From contig JAHBVS010000002.1 in the NCBI GenBank assembly GCA_019637445.1, positions 310,001 through 374,000 on the forward strand: a stretch of 64,000 bases of DNA. Direction: 5' to 3'. Within the stretch, counting starts at the first letter, position 1. Every line of letters begins with the position of its first letter. A program made the translations under genes and the position numbers. The notes beneath the pieces are model-generated. The model ran no database searches, had not been told where the DNA came from, and worked only from the letters and a program-made list of their open reading frames with translations. This document shows positions 10,857 through 60,815 of the stretch, in pieces. This DNA is from Gemmatimonadaceae bacterium (GTDB lineage Bacteria; Gemmatimonadota; Gemmatimonadetes; Gemmatimonadales; Gemmatimonadaceae).

Positions 10857-10878
10857 TTCATCCGGATATACGGATGAA
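10857..10878. promoter_or_regulatory. palindromic operator over the start of the ArsR-methyltransferase gene
   Basis: A perfect 8-bp inverted repeat, TTCATCCG and CGGATGAA, separated by GATATA; the inner four bases are also symmetric, so 20 of 22 bases form a dyad. It contains the ATG at 10874. ArsR-type dimers bind such dyads, so autoregulation by the encoded protein is the natural reading. This is inference from position and symmetry. Confidence 0.65.
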
Positions 10879-11812
10879 GCGATCGCCTCTCGTTGACCGC
10901 CTCTCGGCCCTGGCCGACCCCATTCGCGCCCGGGCCCTCCTCCTCCTGGAGCGGCACGAGCTGACGGTCACCGAGTTGCGGTCGGTGCTGCAACTCCCGC
11001 AGTCGACGGTGAGCCGCCACCTCAAGGTGCTCGCCGAGTCCGGATGGCTCGTCGCCCGCGAGGACGGCACCAGCAATCGGTATCGGCTCGACCTCAAGGC
11101 ACTCGACGCCTCGGCCCGAAAGCTCTGGGCGGCGGTGCGGGAGGACGCGGAGGACTTGCCGTCCGCGGCGCGCGACGCGCAGCGGGTGAAGGGTGTGCTG
11201 GCCGAACGGCACACGCGGTCGCAGCAGTTCTTCGCGAGCTCTGCGGCGCAGTGGGACAAGATGCGCGCCGAGCTCTTCGGGACACGCAGCGAGTTGTTTG
11301 CACTGGTCGGCTTGTTGGATGCCGATGCCGTGGTCGGGGACCTCGGCTGCGGGGCGGGCCAGCTGACGGAAGTCATCGCGCCATTCGTGCGCCGCGTGAT
11401 CGCGGTCGACGAGTCGCCGGCGATGTTGAAGGCGGCGCGGGCCCGCTTGGCGGCGCTGAAGAATGTCGAGCTCCGCAGTGGGAGCATCGAGGAACTGCCG
11501 GTGGATGATGCCGCGCTGGACGTGGCGGTGCTGTCGCTGGTGCTGCACTACGTGACGGAACCGGTGGCGGTGTTGACCGGCATCCGTCGCGCGCTGAAGC
11601 CGAAGGGTGGCCGCCTGTTGCTGGTCGACATGCTGCCGCACGACCGCGCCGAGTATCGGCAGACAATGGGACACGTCTGGCTGGGCTTCGACGCGGAGCA
11701 GGTGCAGCAGTGGGGGAGGGAAGCGGGGTTCGCATCCGTGCGGGTGCATCCGATTCCGTCTGCTACCGCTGCGAAGGGGCCGTCGCTGTTTAGCGCGGTG
11801 CTGCAAGCTTGA
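10874..11812 (+). CDS. ArsR-type regulator fused to a SAM methyltransferase domain (SahR-like)
   Basis: A 312-residue protein with two parts. Residues 1-95 are an ArsR winged helix (LSALADPIRARALLLL, recognition region LQLPQSTVSRHLKVL, wing NRYRL). Residues about 125-310 are a methyltransferase fold with motif I VGDLGCGAGQLTE, VDESPAM and LSLVLHYV. This architecture matches SahR, the SAH-responsive repressor of methionine-cycle genes, and the gene sits directly before ahcY, whose product removes SAH. The methyltransferase domain may therefore sense SAM or SAH rather than catalyse. The 22-bp dyad over its start fits autorepression. Alternative: an active methyltransferase with its own DNA-binding domain. 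Confidence 0.82.
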   Translation: MKRSPLVDRLSALADPIRARALLLLERHELTVTELRSVLQLPQSTVSRHLKVLAESGWLVAREDGTSNRYRLDLKALDASARKLWAAVREDAEDLPSAARDAQRVKGVLAERHTRSQQFFASSAAQWDKMRAELFGTRSELFALVGLLDADAVVGDLGCGAGQLTEVIAPFVRRVIAVDESPAMLKAARARLAALKNVELRSGSIEELPVDDAALDVAVLSLVLHYVTEPVAVLTGIRRALKPKGGRLLLVDMLPHDRAEYRQTMGHVWLGFDAEQVQQWGREAGFASVRVHPIPSATAAKGPSLFSAVLQA

Positions 11813-11830
11813 GCTACAACTGAAGTCGTA

Positions 11831-11889
11831 AGTTGTGAGTCATGAGTCGTGAGGAACGACTCACAACTCACGACTCATGACTCACCACT
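11831..11889. repeat. heptad-repeat hairpin, copy 1 of the ACTYAYN family
   Basis: Between the ArsR-methyltransferase gene and ahcY. The left arm is a run of 7-nt units of form NRTRAGT (CGTAAGT, TGTGAGT, CATGAGT, CGTGAGG); the right arm carries the complementary units ACTCACA, ACTCACG, ACTCATG, ACTCACC. A 19-bp perfect pairing joins 11835-11853 to 11867-11885, offset by one unit, leaving a 13-nt loop. There is no T-run. A related AACTGAAGT motif lies just left and CCCGCATCC just right (about 11913), both shared with the copies near 57.5 and 60.7 kb. Confidence 0.85.
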
Positions 11890-11929
11890 GCCGTTATCGC
11901 TCTTCCATCACCCCGCATCCGAGTCGCCA

Positions 11930-13447
11930 ATGACCGCCATCGCTCCCAACGCCCACGCCTTCGACGCCGCCAAGTCCGCCGGCCGCGAGCCGTTCAAGGT
12001 CGCCGACATCTCCCTCGCCCCCTGGGGCCGCCAGGAGATCCGTCTCGCCGAGTATGAGATGCCGGGCCTGATGGCCCTGCGCGCCGAGTACAAGGGCAAG
12101 AAGCCGCTCGCCGGTGCCCGCATCATGGGCTCGCTGCACATGACCATCCAGACGGCCGTGCTGATCGAGACCCTGACCGAACTCGGCGCCGACGTGCGCT
12201 GGGTGAGCTGCAACATCTTCTCGACGCAGGACCACGCTGCCGCCGCCGTGGTGGTCGGCAAGGATGGGTCGGTCGAGCAGCCGCGCGGTACGCCGGTGTT
12301 CGCCTGGAAGGGCGAGACGCTCGAGGAGTACTGGTGGTGCACGGACCAGGCACTGCTGTGGCCGGACGGCCAGGGCCCGAACCTCATCCTCGATGACGGT
12401 GGCGACGCCACGCTGCTCATCCACAAGGGCACCGAGTACGAAGCCGCGGGCAAGATCCCGGCCTTCGACGCGGCCAACGAGCCCGAGGAGTGGGGCGTGA
12501 TCCTCGACCTCCTGCGCAAGACGCACAAGGAGGACCCGAAGCGCTGGACCAACGTCGGCAAGGCGATCAAGGGCGTCTCGGAGGAGACGACGACCGGCGT
12601 GCACCGCCTCTATGAGATGATGCAGGCGGGCACGCTGCTGTTCCCGGCCATCAACGTGAACGACTCGGTCACCAAGTCGAAGTTCGACAATCTCTACGGC
12701 TGCCGGCACTCGCTGACCGACGGCATCCTCCGCGCCTCGGACGTGATGCTCGCCGGCAAGGTCGCCGTCGTGCTCGGCTACGGCGACGTGGGCAAGGGCT
12801 CGGCGCAGGCCTTCAAGGGCCAGGGCGCGCGCGTCGTGATCGTCGAGATCGACCCCATCTGCGCGCTGCAGGCGGCGATGGAAGGCTACCAGGTCGCCAC
12901 GCTCGATGACGTGGTGAGCACCGCCGACATCTTCATCACTGCCACGGGCAACGCGGACATCATCACCGCGGCGCACATGGCGAAGATGAAGGACAAGGCC
13001 ATCGTCGGGAACATCGGCCACTTCGACAACGAGATCGACATGGCCGGTCTCAAGAAGATGGCGGGCGTCAAGCGCAACAACATCAAGCCGCAGTTCGACG
13101 AGTGGATCTTCCCGGACGGCCACTCGGTGCTGATCCTGGCCGAAGGCCGCCTGCTCAACCTCGGCTGCGCCACGGGCCACCCGTCGTTCGTGATGAGCTG
13201 CTCGTTCACCAACCAGGTGGTGGCGCAGGTCGACCTGCACCTCGCCGCGCAGGGCAAGGAGACGGTGTCGGGCACCAAGTACGACGCCAAGAAGGTCTAC
13301 GTGCTGCCCAAGAAGCTCGACGAGAAGGTGGCGCGCCTGCACCTCGACAAGCTGGGTGTGAAGCTGACGAAGCTCACGGAGAAGCAGGCGGCGTACATCG
13401 GCGTGCCGGTGGATGGGCCGTATAAGTCGGACCACTACCGGTACTAG
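11930..13447 (+). CDS. ahcY: adenosylhomocysteinase (S-adenosyl-L-homocysteine hydrolase)
   Basis: A 505-residue NAD-dependent enzyme that splits S-adenosylhomocysteine into homocysteine and adenosine, relieving product inhibition of methyltransferases. Signatures include [14 protein letters not shown], the substrate-binding DDGGD segment, [21 protein letters not shown], the NAD loop [22 protein letters not shown], and C-terminal KSDHYRY that closes the partner active site. It has the long insert typical of bacterial enzymes. It starts at ATG 11930, about 45 nt after the heptad hairpin. The preceding ArsR-methyltransferase is probably its regulator. A compound hairpin follows the stop. Confidence 0.97.
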
Positions 13448-13555
13448 GACGAAGGTTGTAGGACGAAGGACGGAAGTGAACGGCGGCGCGAGTCCAAGGA
13501 TTCGCGCCGCCGTTTGCCGTTTGCTTCCGTCCTTCGTCCTCCGCCCTCCGTCCTC
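13448..13555. repeat. compound hairpin of 7-nt units between convergent ahcY and propeller gene (probable two-way terminator)
   Basis: Outer stem of 17 perfect base pairs (13460-13476 with 13524-13540), built from 7-nt units: AGGACGA/AGGACGG on the left, and TTCGTCC, TCCGCCC, TCCGTCC on the right. Inside lies a second, GC-rich perfect 11-bp stem (13481-13491 with 13502-13512). It fills the whole gap between the ahcY stop and the stop of the convergent minus-strand gene, so it can fold on either transcript. It shares architecture, not sequence, with the ACTYAYN copies. Confidence 0.8.
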
Positions 13556-41487: not shown

Positions 41488-41498
41488 CCGGCTAAATT
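41470..41498 (+). promoter_or_regulatory. promoter of the SRP RNA gene
   Basis: TTGTCC (41470-41475), 17-bp spacer, TAAATT (41493-41498). The predicted start, 7-8 nt on, is the G at 41506 where the RNA 5' stem begins, so promoter and RNA end agree. The -35 lies within the last codons of the upstream membrane protein gene. Confidence 0.7.
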
Positions 41499-41505
41499 CC
41501 CTTTC

Positions 41506-41602
41506 GTTCCAGGTCCCGGGGGGCTTCGGCCCGCCAACCCCGCCAGGGCCGAAAGGCAGCAACGGTACGTGGAGTCCATCGCCGCTCCGTCAGGCCTGGA
41601 AC
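41506..41602 (+). ncRNA. ffs: signal recognition particle RNA, small bacterial (4.5S) type
   Basis: About 97 nt. The ends GTTCCAGG (41506-41513) and CCTGGAAC (41595-41602) pair perfectly. The apical domain contains GCCAGGGCCGAAAGGCAGCA around 41541-41560, matching the conserved Ffh-binding hairpin with a GNRA-like tetraloop and the A-rich asymmetric loop. The gene lies just upstream of dnaX, as in many bacteria. Promoter and T-run terminator flank it, so it is an autonomous unit. The RNA works with Ffh and FtsY in cotranslational membrane targeting. Confidence 0.9.
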
Positions 41603-41605
41603 ACT

Positions 41606-41655
41606 CTCGCGCGCTTGATTCGTCTCGCAAGGACGGATCGGCGCGCGAGTTTTTT
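41606..41655 (+). terminator. rho-independent terminator of the SRP RNA gene
   Basis: CTCGCGCGC (41606-41614) pairs perfectly with GCGCGCGAG (41641-41649), followed directly by TTTTTT (41650-41655). The loop is long (26 nt). It lies 4 nt beyond the RNA 3' stem. The T-run merges into the left arm of the large inverted repeat. Confidence 0.8.
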
Positions 41656-41846
41656 GCCACAGAGGCACGGAGACACAGAGCGGCACGTGGGGCGAATCTG
41701 AACTCTGTGTCTTCTTTCAGTTGGCACTTTGGGGGGTGCGGCGGACAGATCTGTCCGCCGCACCCCCTTTGAAGTTGCCGTTGGCCTAGACACAGAGGGG
41801 TCGGAGTGCGGGGATGCCCTCTGCGTCTCTGTGCCTCTGTGGCAAA
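41653..41846. repeat. 194-bp nested inverted repeat with 8-nt units and a 36-bp perfect palindrome core
   Basis: Three nested stems. Outer: 41653-41680 with 41819-41846, 28 nt with one G-T and one mismatched pair; its arms are degenerate 8-nt units, CTCTGYGN on the right and the complement on the left. Middle: CTCTGTGTC (41703-41711) with GACACAGAG (41789-41797), again the same unit. Core: a perfect 36-bp palindrome, 41732-41767, centred on the AGATCT at 41747-41752. No coding potential. It fills most of the ffs-dnaX gap and could form a long cruciform or RNA hairpin. Confidence 0.88.
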
Positions 41847-41850
41847 GCAG

Positions 41851-41880
41851 TTCGCCGTTCCCGCATCCAACGGCTAAATT
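41851..41880 (+). promoter_or_regulatory. putative dnaX promoter
   Basis: TTCGCC (41851-41856), 18-bp spacer, TAAATT (41875-41880), in the context CGGCTAAATTC that also surrounds the ffs -10 box. The start would be near 41887, only about 5 nt before the dnaX ATG, so no room for a ribosome site. Confidence 0.5.
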
Positions 41881-41891
41881 CACGGCTGATA

Positions 41892-57456: not shown

Positions 57457-57481
57457 ATGTAAGAAAATATTGACATATGCG
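57452..57481. promoter_or_regulatory. operator over the ArsR start codon
   Basis: CGCATATGT (57452-57460) and ACATATGCG (57473-57481) are perfect inverted 9-mers around a 12-bp AT-rich spacer that contains the minus-strand -10 TATTTT (57468-57463). The ATG (57456-57454) is inside the left arm. Bound repressor would block both polymerase and initiation, fitting autorepression of the three-gene operon. Confidence 0.75.
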
Positions 57482-57526
57482 GGATGCGCAAGGGGGCTGA
57501 GGGATGCGGGGGAACGGCGGTCGTGA

Positions 57527-57617
57527 GTTGTGAGTCGTGAGTTGTGAGTAAAAGGCGGATGCGGGTCACTGCGCAGCCCGCATCCTCACTCACTACTCAC
57601 AACTCATAACTCACAAC
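57527..57617. repeat. heptad-repeat hairpin, copy 2 of the ACTYAYN family
   Basis: Between the ADOP permease gene and the ArsR gene. The outer stem pairs 57527-57550 with 57594-57617 (24 nt, two mismatches), each arm holding three to four 7-nt units (TGTGAGT and CGTGAGT on the left; ACTCACA and ACTCATA on the right). An inner perfect 9-bp stem, GGATGCGGG (57557-57565) with CCCGCATCC (57577-57585), closes an 11-nt loop. CTGCAGTTG follows the right arm. Three flanking GGGATGCG words lie at 57481-57510. Confidence 0.88.
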
Positions 57618-57650
57618 TGCAGTTGTCAGGCTAGATCCAGCGGCGTCCGC

Positions 57651-60278
57651 CTAACCCGCCCGCAGTGCCCGCATTGGACTCACCCGCGTGGCCCGGGATG
57701 CAGGGATCCACGAGGCCAGCACCGCCACCAATAGGATGGCTGCGGCGACCGCAGCGACGGTGAGCGGGTCGCGCGGGGCGACGCCGAACGCGAAACGGCT
57801 CAGCACCCGCGAGGCGGCGAGGAAGGCGACAATGCCGATCGCTGCGCCGACGGCGGCGAGGCGCAGGCCTTCGGCCAAGAGCATCCGTCGAACGCGCGCG
57901 GGCAGCGCGCCGAGTGCAAGGCGGACACCGATCTCGTGCTGGCGGGCGCCGACGACCTGCATCAGCTGGCCGAAGAGGCCGAGCATCGTGAGCACGACGG
58001 CGACCACGGCGAAGGTGGCCAACAACATCAGTGAGAAGCGGCGCGGCAGTGAGGCGGCGCGCTGCAGTGATTCCAGCGTGACGGACTCGTTGCTTGGTAC
58101 GGGGCCGAGTTCCTGCTCCATCGCCTCGGAGACTGCGGCGAGCGCCGCGCCGCCGCGCGTGGCGCCGCGCGCGATCACGAACACGCTGGCCGTCGGCGAC
58201 TGCGCGTGTGGCACATACACGGCCGGTCTGCCCGCTGTCTCCATCGAGGTATAGCGCAGGTCGGGCACCACGCCGACAACTCGTCGCGCTGCCGCATTGG
58301 CCGGGCTGTTGCCGATCAACAGCGTCTGGCCGACTGGGTCCAAGTCGCCGAAGTAGCGGCGGGCCGCCGCCGCCGAGATCACGGCGACCGGTTCGCCGCT
58401 CAAGCCGTCGAACTCATTGAACACGCGGCCCTGCAGCGCCGGCACGCGCAGCGCATCGAAGAATCCCGGGCTCGCGACGACGGCGTACAGCTGCTGTCCG
58501 TCGTCGAATCCGGGGCGCTGCACGAAGGCTTCGGTGGAGCCGATCTCAGCCGCCAAGGGCAGCGACGAGGCCACGCCAGCCGCCGCGATGCCGGGCGTCT
58601 GCTTCAGGCGCGACTCCATCGCCCGGCCGGCGGCCTCACGCTCGGCGTCGCTGCGGCGCAGATGCCAGAAGTGTTGCTCCACGCCGACCACGCCGCTCGC
58701 ATCGTAGCCCTGCTCGGTGGCCATCAACTGCGACCAGGAGCGCAGCAGCAGGCCGCCCGAGCAGAGCAGCGTCACCGAGATGGCGATCTGCGCAGCGGTG
58801 AGCACGGTGCGCAGCCGCCGCCCGCCGCGCGAGGAGGCGTCGGAGCCGCCGCGTAATGCGTCGTGCAGGTCGCGGGCCGCGAAACGAATTGGTGTGATTC
58901 CCAGTACCAGTGTCACCGCGACGGTGACGCCGATGCCAAGCCAGACTGAACGCGCGTCCACGCCGAGCTCGGCAAGGCGTGGCACGGAGGATGGCACCCA
59001 GCCGCGCAGCAGCTGCAGGCCGACGGCGCCAAGTGCGAGTCCCAGCGCGCCAGCCGCGGCGCCCAGCAGCGCCGACTCGGCGAGCAGCTGCCGCGTGATG
59101 CGCGTGAGGCCGGCGCCGACGGCGGCGCGCACCGCGAGTTCGCGCGCGCGGCCCATCGTGTCGGAGAGTAGGAGCCCCGACGCGTTGGCCACGGCCAGCG
59201 TCAGCAGCAAGAGTGCGCCGACACCCAGCAGCAGGAGCGCGGGCCGCACGCCGCCAAGCACGGACGCGTCGAGGCGTTCAACGATGAGTGTCCGTGTGCC
59301 GGCACTCGGTGGCGCGAGCGCGTCGCTGCGTTGTGCCAGTGTCGTGAGCTCGGCGACGCCGGTCTCGTATGCGACGCCCTCCTTGAGCCGCCCGAACGCG
59401 GACCAGAAGTCCGCGACACGGTTTTCCCGGGCGTTGCCCACGGGGATGATGGGCACGAAGAAGTCGCGGCCGTCGAGCAACGGAAAGTCCTGCGGCAGCA
59501 CCCCGACGATGGTCATCGGTGTGCCATTGAAGCGCTGGCTGCCGCCGATGGACTCGGGTCGGCCACCGAGGTGCCGCTGGAAGAAGTCGAACGACACCAC
59601 GATGCTGGGATCGCTGCCGGCGACGAAGTCGCGGGCCTCGAGCAGTCGCCCGCGATGCGGCTGTGTGCGCAGCGCGTCGAAGTACGACCGGGTCACGCGC
59701 CAGGTGCCGATGTTGAGCAGCTCGCCGTCGCGTTCGATCTCGAGGCTGTAGGGCTGCGCCGCGGCGATGGCTGCGAAGCTGCGACTGCCCTCGGCGAGAT
59801 CGAGCGCCGTGCCCACTGCGAGGCCGTTGCGCAGCTCGGCGTTCCGCGGATCGCCGCGCCAGAGCGTGACCAGACGGTCCGGCGCCTCGAGCGGCAGCGG
59901 CCGCAGCAGGATGCGATCCACCGCGCCACCGAAAGCCACGAAGGTGCCGATTCCGAGTGCCAGCGCGGCAACGGCGGCCGTGGCGAGCACCGGATGCCGC
60001 CGCATCCGCCGGCCGGCGAAGCGCAGGTCCATCACGAAGTCGTGCAGGGCGCCGAGTGCGCGGCGTTTGCGGCGGTCGGCCTGGGCGTACCCGAGCAGGT
60101 CGGTCTCGAGTGCCTCGCGATCGCCCATCCGCGCGGCCACCCGCTCCGCGACTTCATCCTGCGGCACGCCGGCGCGTTCGAGGTCTTCCTGCGCGAAGGC
60201 TTGGTGCGCGTCGAGTTCCTCGCGGATCTCCTTGCGCAGCTCGTCGTCGGACGGGAAGGGGAGTTGGAAGTCCGACAT
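57651..60278 (-). CDS. ADOP-type ABC transporter permease (MacB/FtsX fold, duplicated)
   Basis: An 875-residue inner-membrane protein of the acidobacterial duplicated orphan permease type. A cytosolic helical N-terminal domain (about 1-85; ELRKEIREELDAHQAF, VAARMGDREALE) is followed by two MacB-like halves, each with a large periplasmic domain and FtsX helices: GRRMRRHPVLATAAVAALALGIG, FSSAFGRLKEGV-like region, LAVRAAVGAGLTRITRQLL, and in the second half LRTVLTAAQIAISVTLL and IGVRLALGALPARVRRML, ending SPMRALRAG. It lacks an ATPase in cis, hence orphan. The PadR gene lies directly upstream, the usual pairing. Substrates are unknown; export or efflux is likely. Confidence 0.92.
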   Translation of the reverse strand: MSDFQLPFPSDDELRKEIREELDAHQAFAQEDLERAGVPQDEVAERVAARMGDREALETDLLGYAQADRRKRRALGALHDFVMDLRFAGRRMRRHPVLATAAVAALALGIGTFVAFGGAVDRILLRPLPLEAPDRLVTLWRGDPRNAELRNGLAVGTALDLAEGSRSFAAIAAAQPYSLEIERDGELLNIGTWRVTRSYFDALRTQPHRGRLLEARDFVAGSDPSIVVSFDFFQRHLGGRPESIGGSQRFNGTPMTIVGVLPQDFPLLDGRDFFVPIIPVGNARENRVADFWSAFGRLKEGVAYETGVAELTTLAQRSDALAPPSAGTRTLIVERLDASVLGGVRPALLLLGVGALLLLTLAVANASGLLLSDTMGRARELAVRAAVGAGLTRITRQLLAESALLGAAAGALGLALGAVGLQLLRGWVPSSVPRLAELGVDARSVWLGIGVTVAVTLVLGITPIRFAARDLHDALRGGSDASSRGGRRLRTVLTAAQIAISVTLLCSGGLLLRSWSQLMATEQGYDASGVVGVEQHFWHLRRSDAEREAAGRAMESRLKQTPGIAAAGVASSLPLAAEIGSTEAFVQRPGFDDGQQLYAVVASPGFFDALRVPALQGRVFNEFDGLSGEPVAVISAAAARRYFGDLDPVGQTLLIGNSPANAAARRVVGVVPDLRYTSMETAGRPAVYVPHAQSPTASVFVIARGATRGGAALAAVSEAMEQELGPVPSNESVTLESLQRAASLPRRFSLMLLATFAVVAVVLTMLGLFGQLMQVVGARQHEIGVRLALGALPARVRRMLLAEGLRLAAVGAAIGIVAFLAASRVLSRFAFGVAPRDPLTVAAVAAAILLVAVLASWIPASRATRVSPMRALRAG

Positions 60279-60614: not shown

Positions 60615-60719
60615 CGGGTCCCCTGAGTGGCTTTCCCTGAGTTAGTGAGGGGAAGGATGCGGGATGCGGAAGGACTTGTCAAATGCTCGGGATTGCTTGC
60701 GCAGATGGGGCTGAGCGGG

Positions 60720-60815
60720 GGATGCGGGTTGAACTGCAGTTGTAAGTCGTGAGTCGTGAGGAGGAGTGCTCCTCCCTCACCACTTACCACTCATGACTCA
60801 CAACTTCCCGTATCC
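60720..60815. repeat. heptad-repeat hairpin, copy 3 of the ACTYAYN family
   Basis: Between PadR and mnmA. Outermost GGATGCGGG (60720-60728) pairs with CCCGTATCC (60807-60815), eight of nine with a G-T. Inside, the left arm has three NRTRAGT units (TGTAAGT, CGTGAGT, CGTGAGG) and the right arm four complementary units (ACTTACC, ACTCATG, ACTCACA preceded by CCTCACC), so one arm has an extra unit. A GAGGAG/CTCCTC stem caps it. AACTGCAGTT (60732-60741) is shared with copy 2. The remaining 60615-60719 has no gene. Confidence 0.88.

Follow-up and report, generated by a model that had tools for sequence, protein, structure and literature searches.

Between ahcY and its upstream neighbor, the window (the whole 64,000-nt stretch of Gemmatimonadaceae DNA that was analyzed) contains a hairpin whose arms are each a tandem of 7-nt units. 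The locus raises the question of what such a structure is, how far it extends through this genome and its relatives, and what it may do.

Heptad hairpins in the window

An earlier note had described heptad-built arms beside ahcY, forming a hairpin at positions 11831 to 11889. The hairpin and its heptads are present, but that extent was too short: once both caps are counted, element 1 covers 11818 to 11895, starting 5 nt past the stop codon of the upstream gene. The further copies announced at 57.5 and 60.7 kb were recovered as elements 2 and 3. The features are listed below, with genes named by family search.

10874 to 11812, plus strand: ArsR-type regulator/methyltransferase, upstream neighbor of element 1
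11818 to 11895, unstranded: complete element 1, with two caps enclosing, in order, a purine-rich heptad arm, a loop and a pyrimidine-rich heptad arm
11824 to 11853, plus strand: left arm of element 1, AGTCGTA AGTTGTG AGTCATG AGTCGTG AG
11835 to 11885, plus strand: perfect 19-bp stem of element 1, best of three registers (11835 to 11853 with 11867 to 11885)
11859 to 11895, plus strand: right arm of element 1, ACTCACA ACTCACG ACTCATG ACTCACC, then the cap ACTGCCGTT
11930 to 13447, plus strand: ahcY, downstream neighbor of element 1
13448 to 13555, unstranded: hairpin of another heptad word (GACGAAG/TCCGTCC) around a GC-rich inner stem, convergent genes on either side
57513 to 57624, unstranded: element 2, 3' of the ADOP permease gene, inner stem with GGATGCGG
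57651 to 60278, minus strand: ADOP family permease, neighbor of element 2
60732 to 60811, unstranded: element 3, 3' of mnmA, 13 nt from its stop codon
60825 to 61937, minus strand: mnmA, neighbor of element 3

Read through, 11818 to 11895 consists of the cap AACTGA, the left arm, the loop GAACG, the right arm and the cap ACTGCCGTT. The arms can slip by 7 nt, as had been proposed: registers at 7-nt steps fold at -39.5 (the 19-bp stem), -36.0 and -34.5 kcal/mol, so that two further registers lie within 5 kcal/mol of the best. The unit had been described as a heptad with a fixed ACT; the heptad stands, but the fixed part is A-C-T-Y-A-Y, leaving one free position. Three-unit ACTYAYN matches number 8 in the window versus 0.00 expected. 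The hairpin of a different word at 13448 to 13555 lies on the opposite side of ahcY from element 1. No hairpin matched Rfam above the gathering score, the sole match in the window being the small SRP RNA at 41508 to 41603. The ADOP permease, together with general features of the DNA, would suggest a placement in Gemmatimonadota.

A dispersed family in the genome

The claim of a dispersed family held for the 100%-complete genome that contains the window (G000), where 83 three-unit ACTYAYN matches were found and the reversed pattern had none. A genome-wide search for facing complementary units, as the earlier note had suggested, gave 111 matches versus 0 for the control. Clustering in the fetched stretches resolved these into approximately 33 elements, 25 of them two-armed and 8 one-armed. 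Read outward from the gene, an arm consists of the cap AACKGC followed by 4 or 5 AGTNRTR heptads; the caps precede most arms and are inverted at the two ends of an element. Unit chains were located through AGT at 7-nt spacing, which makes AGT invariant by construction; 51 of 57 arms contain 4 or 5 such units. The free position of complete units is mostly T (0.45) or C (0.33), less often G (0.18) and rarely A (0.04); G predominates at the two purine positions. Stems of GATGCGG/AACGGC are frequent in the inner parts, where pairing is specific to each element. At two loci (L053 and L071), arms alternate in orientation.

Adjacent units within an arm are identical at a rate of 0.11, compared with 0.10 expected from random units; recent slippage in this genome was accordingly rejected. 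Whole arms are no more similar to one another than shuffled units, and recent copying of arms was rejected on the same grounds. One locus departs from the degenerate arms found elsewhere: a perfect run of about 8 ACTCACG units at G000:C3:204201-204255 (L074:4002-4070) looks slippage-born.

Folding and arm pairing

The 24 two-arm elements of G000 that were folded had a mean z of -7.5 against dinucleotide shuffles. At the upper end, a 129-nt element (L056) forms a nearly unbroken stem with a z of -18. The pairing of arms was compared both between species and between elements. At the rpsJ-rplC junction, arms of the same species formed duplexes of -45.7 kcal/mol, versus -33.0 kcal/mol for arms of different species (0 of 10,000 permutations; p<1e-4, where arm-pairing p-values count species as independent, though they are related). 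The permutation leaves base composition in, and the composition shared by the two arms of a species could explain part of this effect.

Within G000, outer arms pair no better with their own partner than with arms of other elements (-41.3 versus -43.7 kcal/mol), 99% of permutations pairing at least as well; the slightly worse own pairing perhaps reflects avoidance of perfect palindromes. All arms of this genome share one word; if they are drawn from a common vocabulary, a locus-specific preference between outer arms is expected to be absent. A pairing constraint on outer arms within one dialect was rejected, no such preference being found in G000. Inner halves do have element-specific partners (-19.6 versus -12.4 kcal/mol).

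Placement relative to genes

Gene context in G000 was derived from our own codon-based gene calls on the fetched stretches. The intergenic placement proposed for the family was confirmed: of the 33 elements, 24 have an end no more than 6 nt from a gene boundary, which is a stop codon for 18 and a start codon for 6. The family is over-represented at convergent junctions (11 of 33; Fisher p=1e-4), and divergent genes flank just 1 of the 33. Elements are found inside the rpsJ-rplC, rpsN-rpsH, rpsD-rpoA and nusG-rplK junctions; other neighbors, by family search, include groEL, atpB, tatA and a ferredoxin gene. Congeners show the same tendency: of 51 heptad segments, 36 lie no more than 10 nt from a gene boundary (15.5 expected), 43 have a stop codon as the nearest boundary, and there is a deficit in divergent regions (2 of 51; p=0.001).

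Single pyrimidine-rich arms abut predicted start codons at five loci (L052:4058-4094, L060:3961-3990, L065:3978-4007, L067:3962-3998 and L071:6167-6196), leaving scant room for a Shine-Dalgarno sequence.

Same junctions, different words in related species

A pooled flank query was run against 16 congeners, one genome per species, and four junctions other than those of ahcY and mnmA were aligned. At the aligned junctions, a hairpin of similar size is usually present in the congeners, and the heptads of its arms are different. The junction words are AGTTGGG (G012), GACTTGA and ACGGATG (G005), GATGTGA (G010), GGTGTGA (G003 and G007), GACGGAA (G008), AGGATGA (G015) and AGGTATC-like (G001, G009 and G014). 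A GC stem with a T run lies within some of the congener copies. The rpsJ-rplC junction is the most consistent, with a single hairpin after the stop codon in 13 of 13 species (z from -2.1 to -9.2), mostly with different words; the best repeat lag there is 7 outright in 11 of the 13 and tied in one. In several small-genome congeners, the hairpin is absent at 3 of the 4 compared junctions and thus has been gained or lost and is dispensable there.

The words also differ across whole genomes. Among the 17 genomes, ACTYAYN has 83 matches in G000, 15 in G016, 2 in G012 and none in the remaining 14 congeners. Conversely, three congener words searched in G000 were all missing there: ACGGAW (95 in G005, 92 in G008, 14 in G002 and 1 in G012), AGTTGRR (16 in G012, 3 in G002 and 1 in G008) and AGATGKR (42 in G016, 35 in G010, 28 in G012, 10 in G002 and a few in others). 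Reversed controls for these words gave 0 apart from one match in G011. The 83 own-word matches in G000, together with the missing congener words, indicate that genomes differ in "dialect." Several heptad words can occur in one genome, as with the STRR heptanucleotides of cyanobacteria such as Calothrix, which likewise have several heptad words per genome.

Period 7 in other genomes

In 6 of 7 congeners sampled as 20-kb stretches, repeats between genes are most frequent at lag 7 (G011 has none); pooled, the seven gave 48 segments at lag 7, compared with a single one at lag 6 and none at lag 8. Farther away, an unclassified genome, MAG87 (G403), has 16 segments at lag 7 versus 0 at lags 6 and 8 together, and two Elusimicrobia have 4 and 6 at lag 7, with 2 and 3 at lag 8 and none at lag 6. 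No such intergenic repeats were found in 150 kb of E. coli K-12 or in the Nitrospirae samples. The peak is at lag 10 in a Caldilineaceae genome (G402; L203-L206) and at lag 8 in a class-level relative (G322; L217-L220), so other word lengths may exist.

The four-unit ACTYAYN pattern occurs in 10 genomes of a 395-genome phylum sample. The exact cap-plus-heptad pattern was found in 17 stretches of other organisms, compared with about 4 expected by our own estimate under uniform composition, with 1 to 3 copies per genome in those checked. A few of these look like chance matches in coding sequence, and shared descent across phyla is therefore not established. The same exact pattern had 0 matches in viral contigs, giving no sign of phage carriage, and a search of sequence printed in papers for such heptad strings returned nothing relevant.

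Comparison with known repeats

The closest known kind are the heptameric intergenic repeats GGGNATC of Xanthomonas and GGGGAYT of Nostoc (PMC4692102), which prefer four units, lie with the G-rich strand directly 3' of stop codons and are scarce in divergent regions. Their heptad sequence varies at shared loci, the four-unit preference was linked to G-quadruplexes, and their function was left open (PMC4692102). That paper also cites the Calothrix STRR heptanucleotides and the over-representation of heptamers in bacteria, together with a slippage hypothesis. The hairpins described here resemble these repeats in the intergenic period of 7 rather than 6 or 8, the proximity to stop codons, the avoidance of divergent gene pairs and the approximately four units per arm. 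In contrast, the units of G000 lack near-perfect tandem identity (0.11 versus 0.10 expected), and its arms lack G-tracts and the capacity to form quadruplexes; a G-quadruplex was rejected, as four GGG are present in 0 of 58 arms and four GG in 1. Facing arms, caps, a degenerate grammar, the change of word between sister species and the co-change of arms also set the present family apart. Given the shared geometry without G-tracts, we file the heptad hairpins as a variant of the Xanthomonas/Nostoc class and refuse the quadruplex as a common cause.

Two other systems are comparable in part. Like REP/BIME elements (PMC2817692), the hairpins are extragenic, lie near gene ends, have arms in alternating orientation and are species specific in sequence; unlike REP/BIME elements with RAYT, they occur in a genome without a Y1/RAYT-type transposase, and their arms are heptad arrays of independent units instead of one copied palindrome. 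The TAACTGA direct repeats of Beggiatoaceae, with 2 to 6 units and a function given as unknown (PMC4679880), are likewise intergenic heptad arrays distributed patchily over phyla, but they consist of one invariant word, lie mostly just 5' of start codons and have essentially no inverted arrangement (PMC4679880). Finally, attC-like sites were rejected, as the GTTRRRY consensus is missing at the right ends (judged by eye).

Heptameric repeats have long been counted in bacteria without a function, and here the same geometry appears without G-tracts. The site stays while both arms change together between sister species, with no signature of recent slippage in G000. It can now be tested what maintains the structure, by what means the word spreads and why the unit is seven long.

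Candidate explanations

Any explanation has to accommodate the observed structure and position, the genome-specific words, the rpsJ-rplC hairpin with its changed sequence and the co-change of arms between species. Hairpins at the same places in related species, each spelled in its own words, point to a conserved structure, probably not ordinary repeat DNA. We tentatively favor, with somewhat less than even confidence, the view that the heptad hairpins are intercistronic or 3'-UTR RNA hairpin modules that act like REP/BIME elements. A transcript continuing past the stop codon would contain a cap, a purine-rich arm of 4 or 5 heptads, an inner part, a pyrimidine-rich arm of 4 or 5 heptads and, at the far end, another cap. 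Pairing of the arms would give a long stem, often mismatched at the heptad's free position, and the heptad repetition would permit several registers. We infer that RNA is the acting molecule: the hairpin could protect the cistron upstream of it against 3'-5' exonucleases, thereby affecting mRNA stability as in the REP/BIME case, and could isolate neighboring cistrons within operons and at operon ends. The arms of one genome would be homogenized across loci into common words, presumably by spread. The RNA structure that had been offered among the possible roles is supported by the strong folding, the placement after stop codons and the co-change of arms between species; counting against the model are the eight one-arm elements of G000, the six that abut start codons, the lack of partner preference among its outer arms and the junctions left empty in several small-genome congeners. 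Hairpin function alone is insufficient to explain a single heptad common to all arms of a genome.

Alternatively, each unit could be a site for a putative genome-specific RNA- or DNA-binding factor, whose fast evolution would change the word genome-wide, the hairpin being secondary or serving to present the sites. This is rather unlikely in our estimation, even though the strict grammar, the independent draws at the free position, the 4 or 5 units per arm, the use of one word at loci genome-wide and others in sister species, the single arms and the indifference of G000 outer arms to their own partner all fit it; one genome can carry several words, and a binding array alone leaves unexplained the facing arms, the exact stop-codon placement and the arm co-change at rpsJ-rplC. 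Insertion of arms or elements by a putative selfish activity, with survival after stop codons where harm is least and the word being that of the currently active source, seems about equally doubtful. It would suit the dispersed, bounded elements with inverted caps, the alternating arms at L053 and L071, the empty sites in relatives and the genome-specific words, as in REP families. The caps amount to the terminal inverted repeats of a MITE; near-identical arms are no more frequent than chance, and no target-site duplications were seen (by eye only). In G000, PF01797 (IS200/IS605-like Y1 transposase) had no match, 5 of 14 control genomes being positive, and no reverse transcriptase was found; REP/RAYT and retroelement origins were rejected for this genome. 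These absences leave the mobile element suggested earlier without positive support, and the presence of the rpsJ-rplC hairpin in 13 of 13 species also argues against it.

Simple sequence repeats that arise when the polymerase slips by 7 nt, that are tolerated in intergenic DNA and that become hairpins by strand switching would produce the sharp lag-7 peak and the perfect arrays (C3:204201 and G403), and slippage has been proposed for the heptamer excess reported in bacteria (PMC4692102). This origin is highly improbable for the family: neighboring units in G000 resemble each other no more than randomly chosen ones do, the word is common to all loci, caps are present and unit number is constant. 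Similarly hard to credit are intrinsic transcription terminators, often bidirectional, to which the strong stems, the enrichment between convergent genes and the GC stem with a T run in some congener copies would correspond. No T run follows at 11818 to 11895 (other copies were read by eye), and elements lie within the S10 and spc ribosomal operons, where termination would do harm, which argues against plain terminators. A triple-frame stop was also considered, since every RTRAGTN unit supplies TGA or TAA and the unit length, 7, shares no factor with 3; it was rejected as a general cause because the congener words GACGGAA and AGGTATC occupy the same junctions without a stop.

Returning to the RNA hairpin modules, a broader speculation, which we rate as rather improbable, is that bacteria widely use a "heptad dialect": intercistronic hairpins in a genome's own word, with a putative fast-evolving reader, in which structure and position would persist and words would be replaced between sister species. 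The "quadruplex" repeats of Xanthomonas and Nostoc would then be dialects as well.

Other repeats near the hairpins

The heptad word GGATGCG adjoins hairpins of the window at 57475 to 57508 and 60655 to 60668. It also occurs in an array of the unrelated G403 genome (L208:13671-14047), in which AGTGGTC units pass into TGCGGGA units in register. In the intergenic region from 41488 to 41891, the small SRP RNA (41508 to 41603) precedes long CACAGAG/CTCTGTG stretches that face each other, a different type of repeat whose period is roughly 8 to 9.
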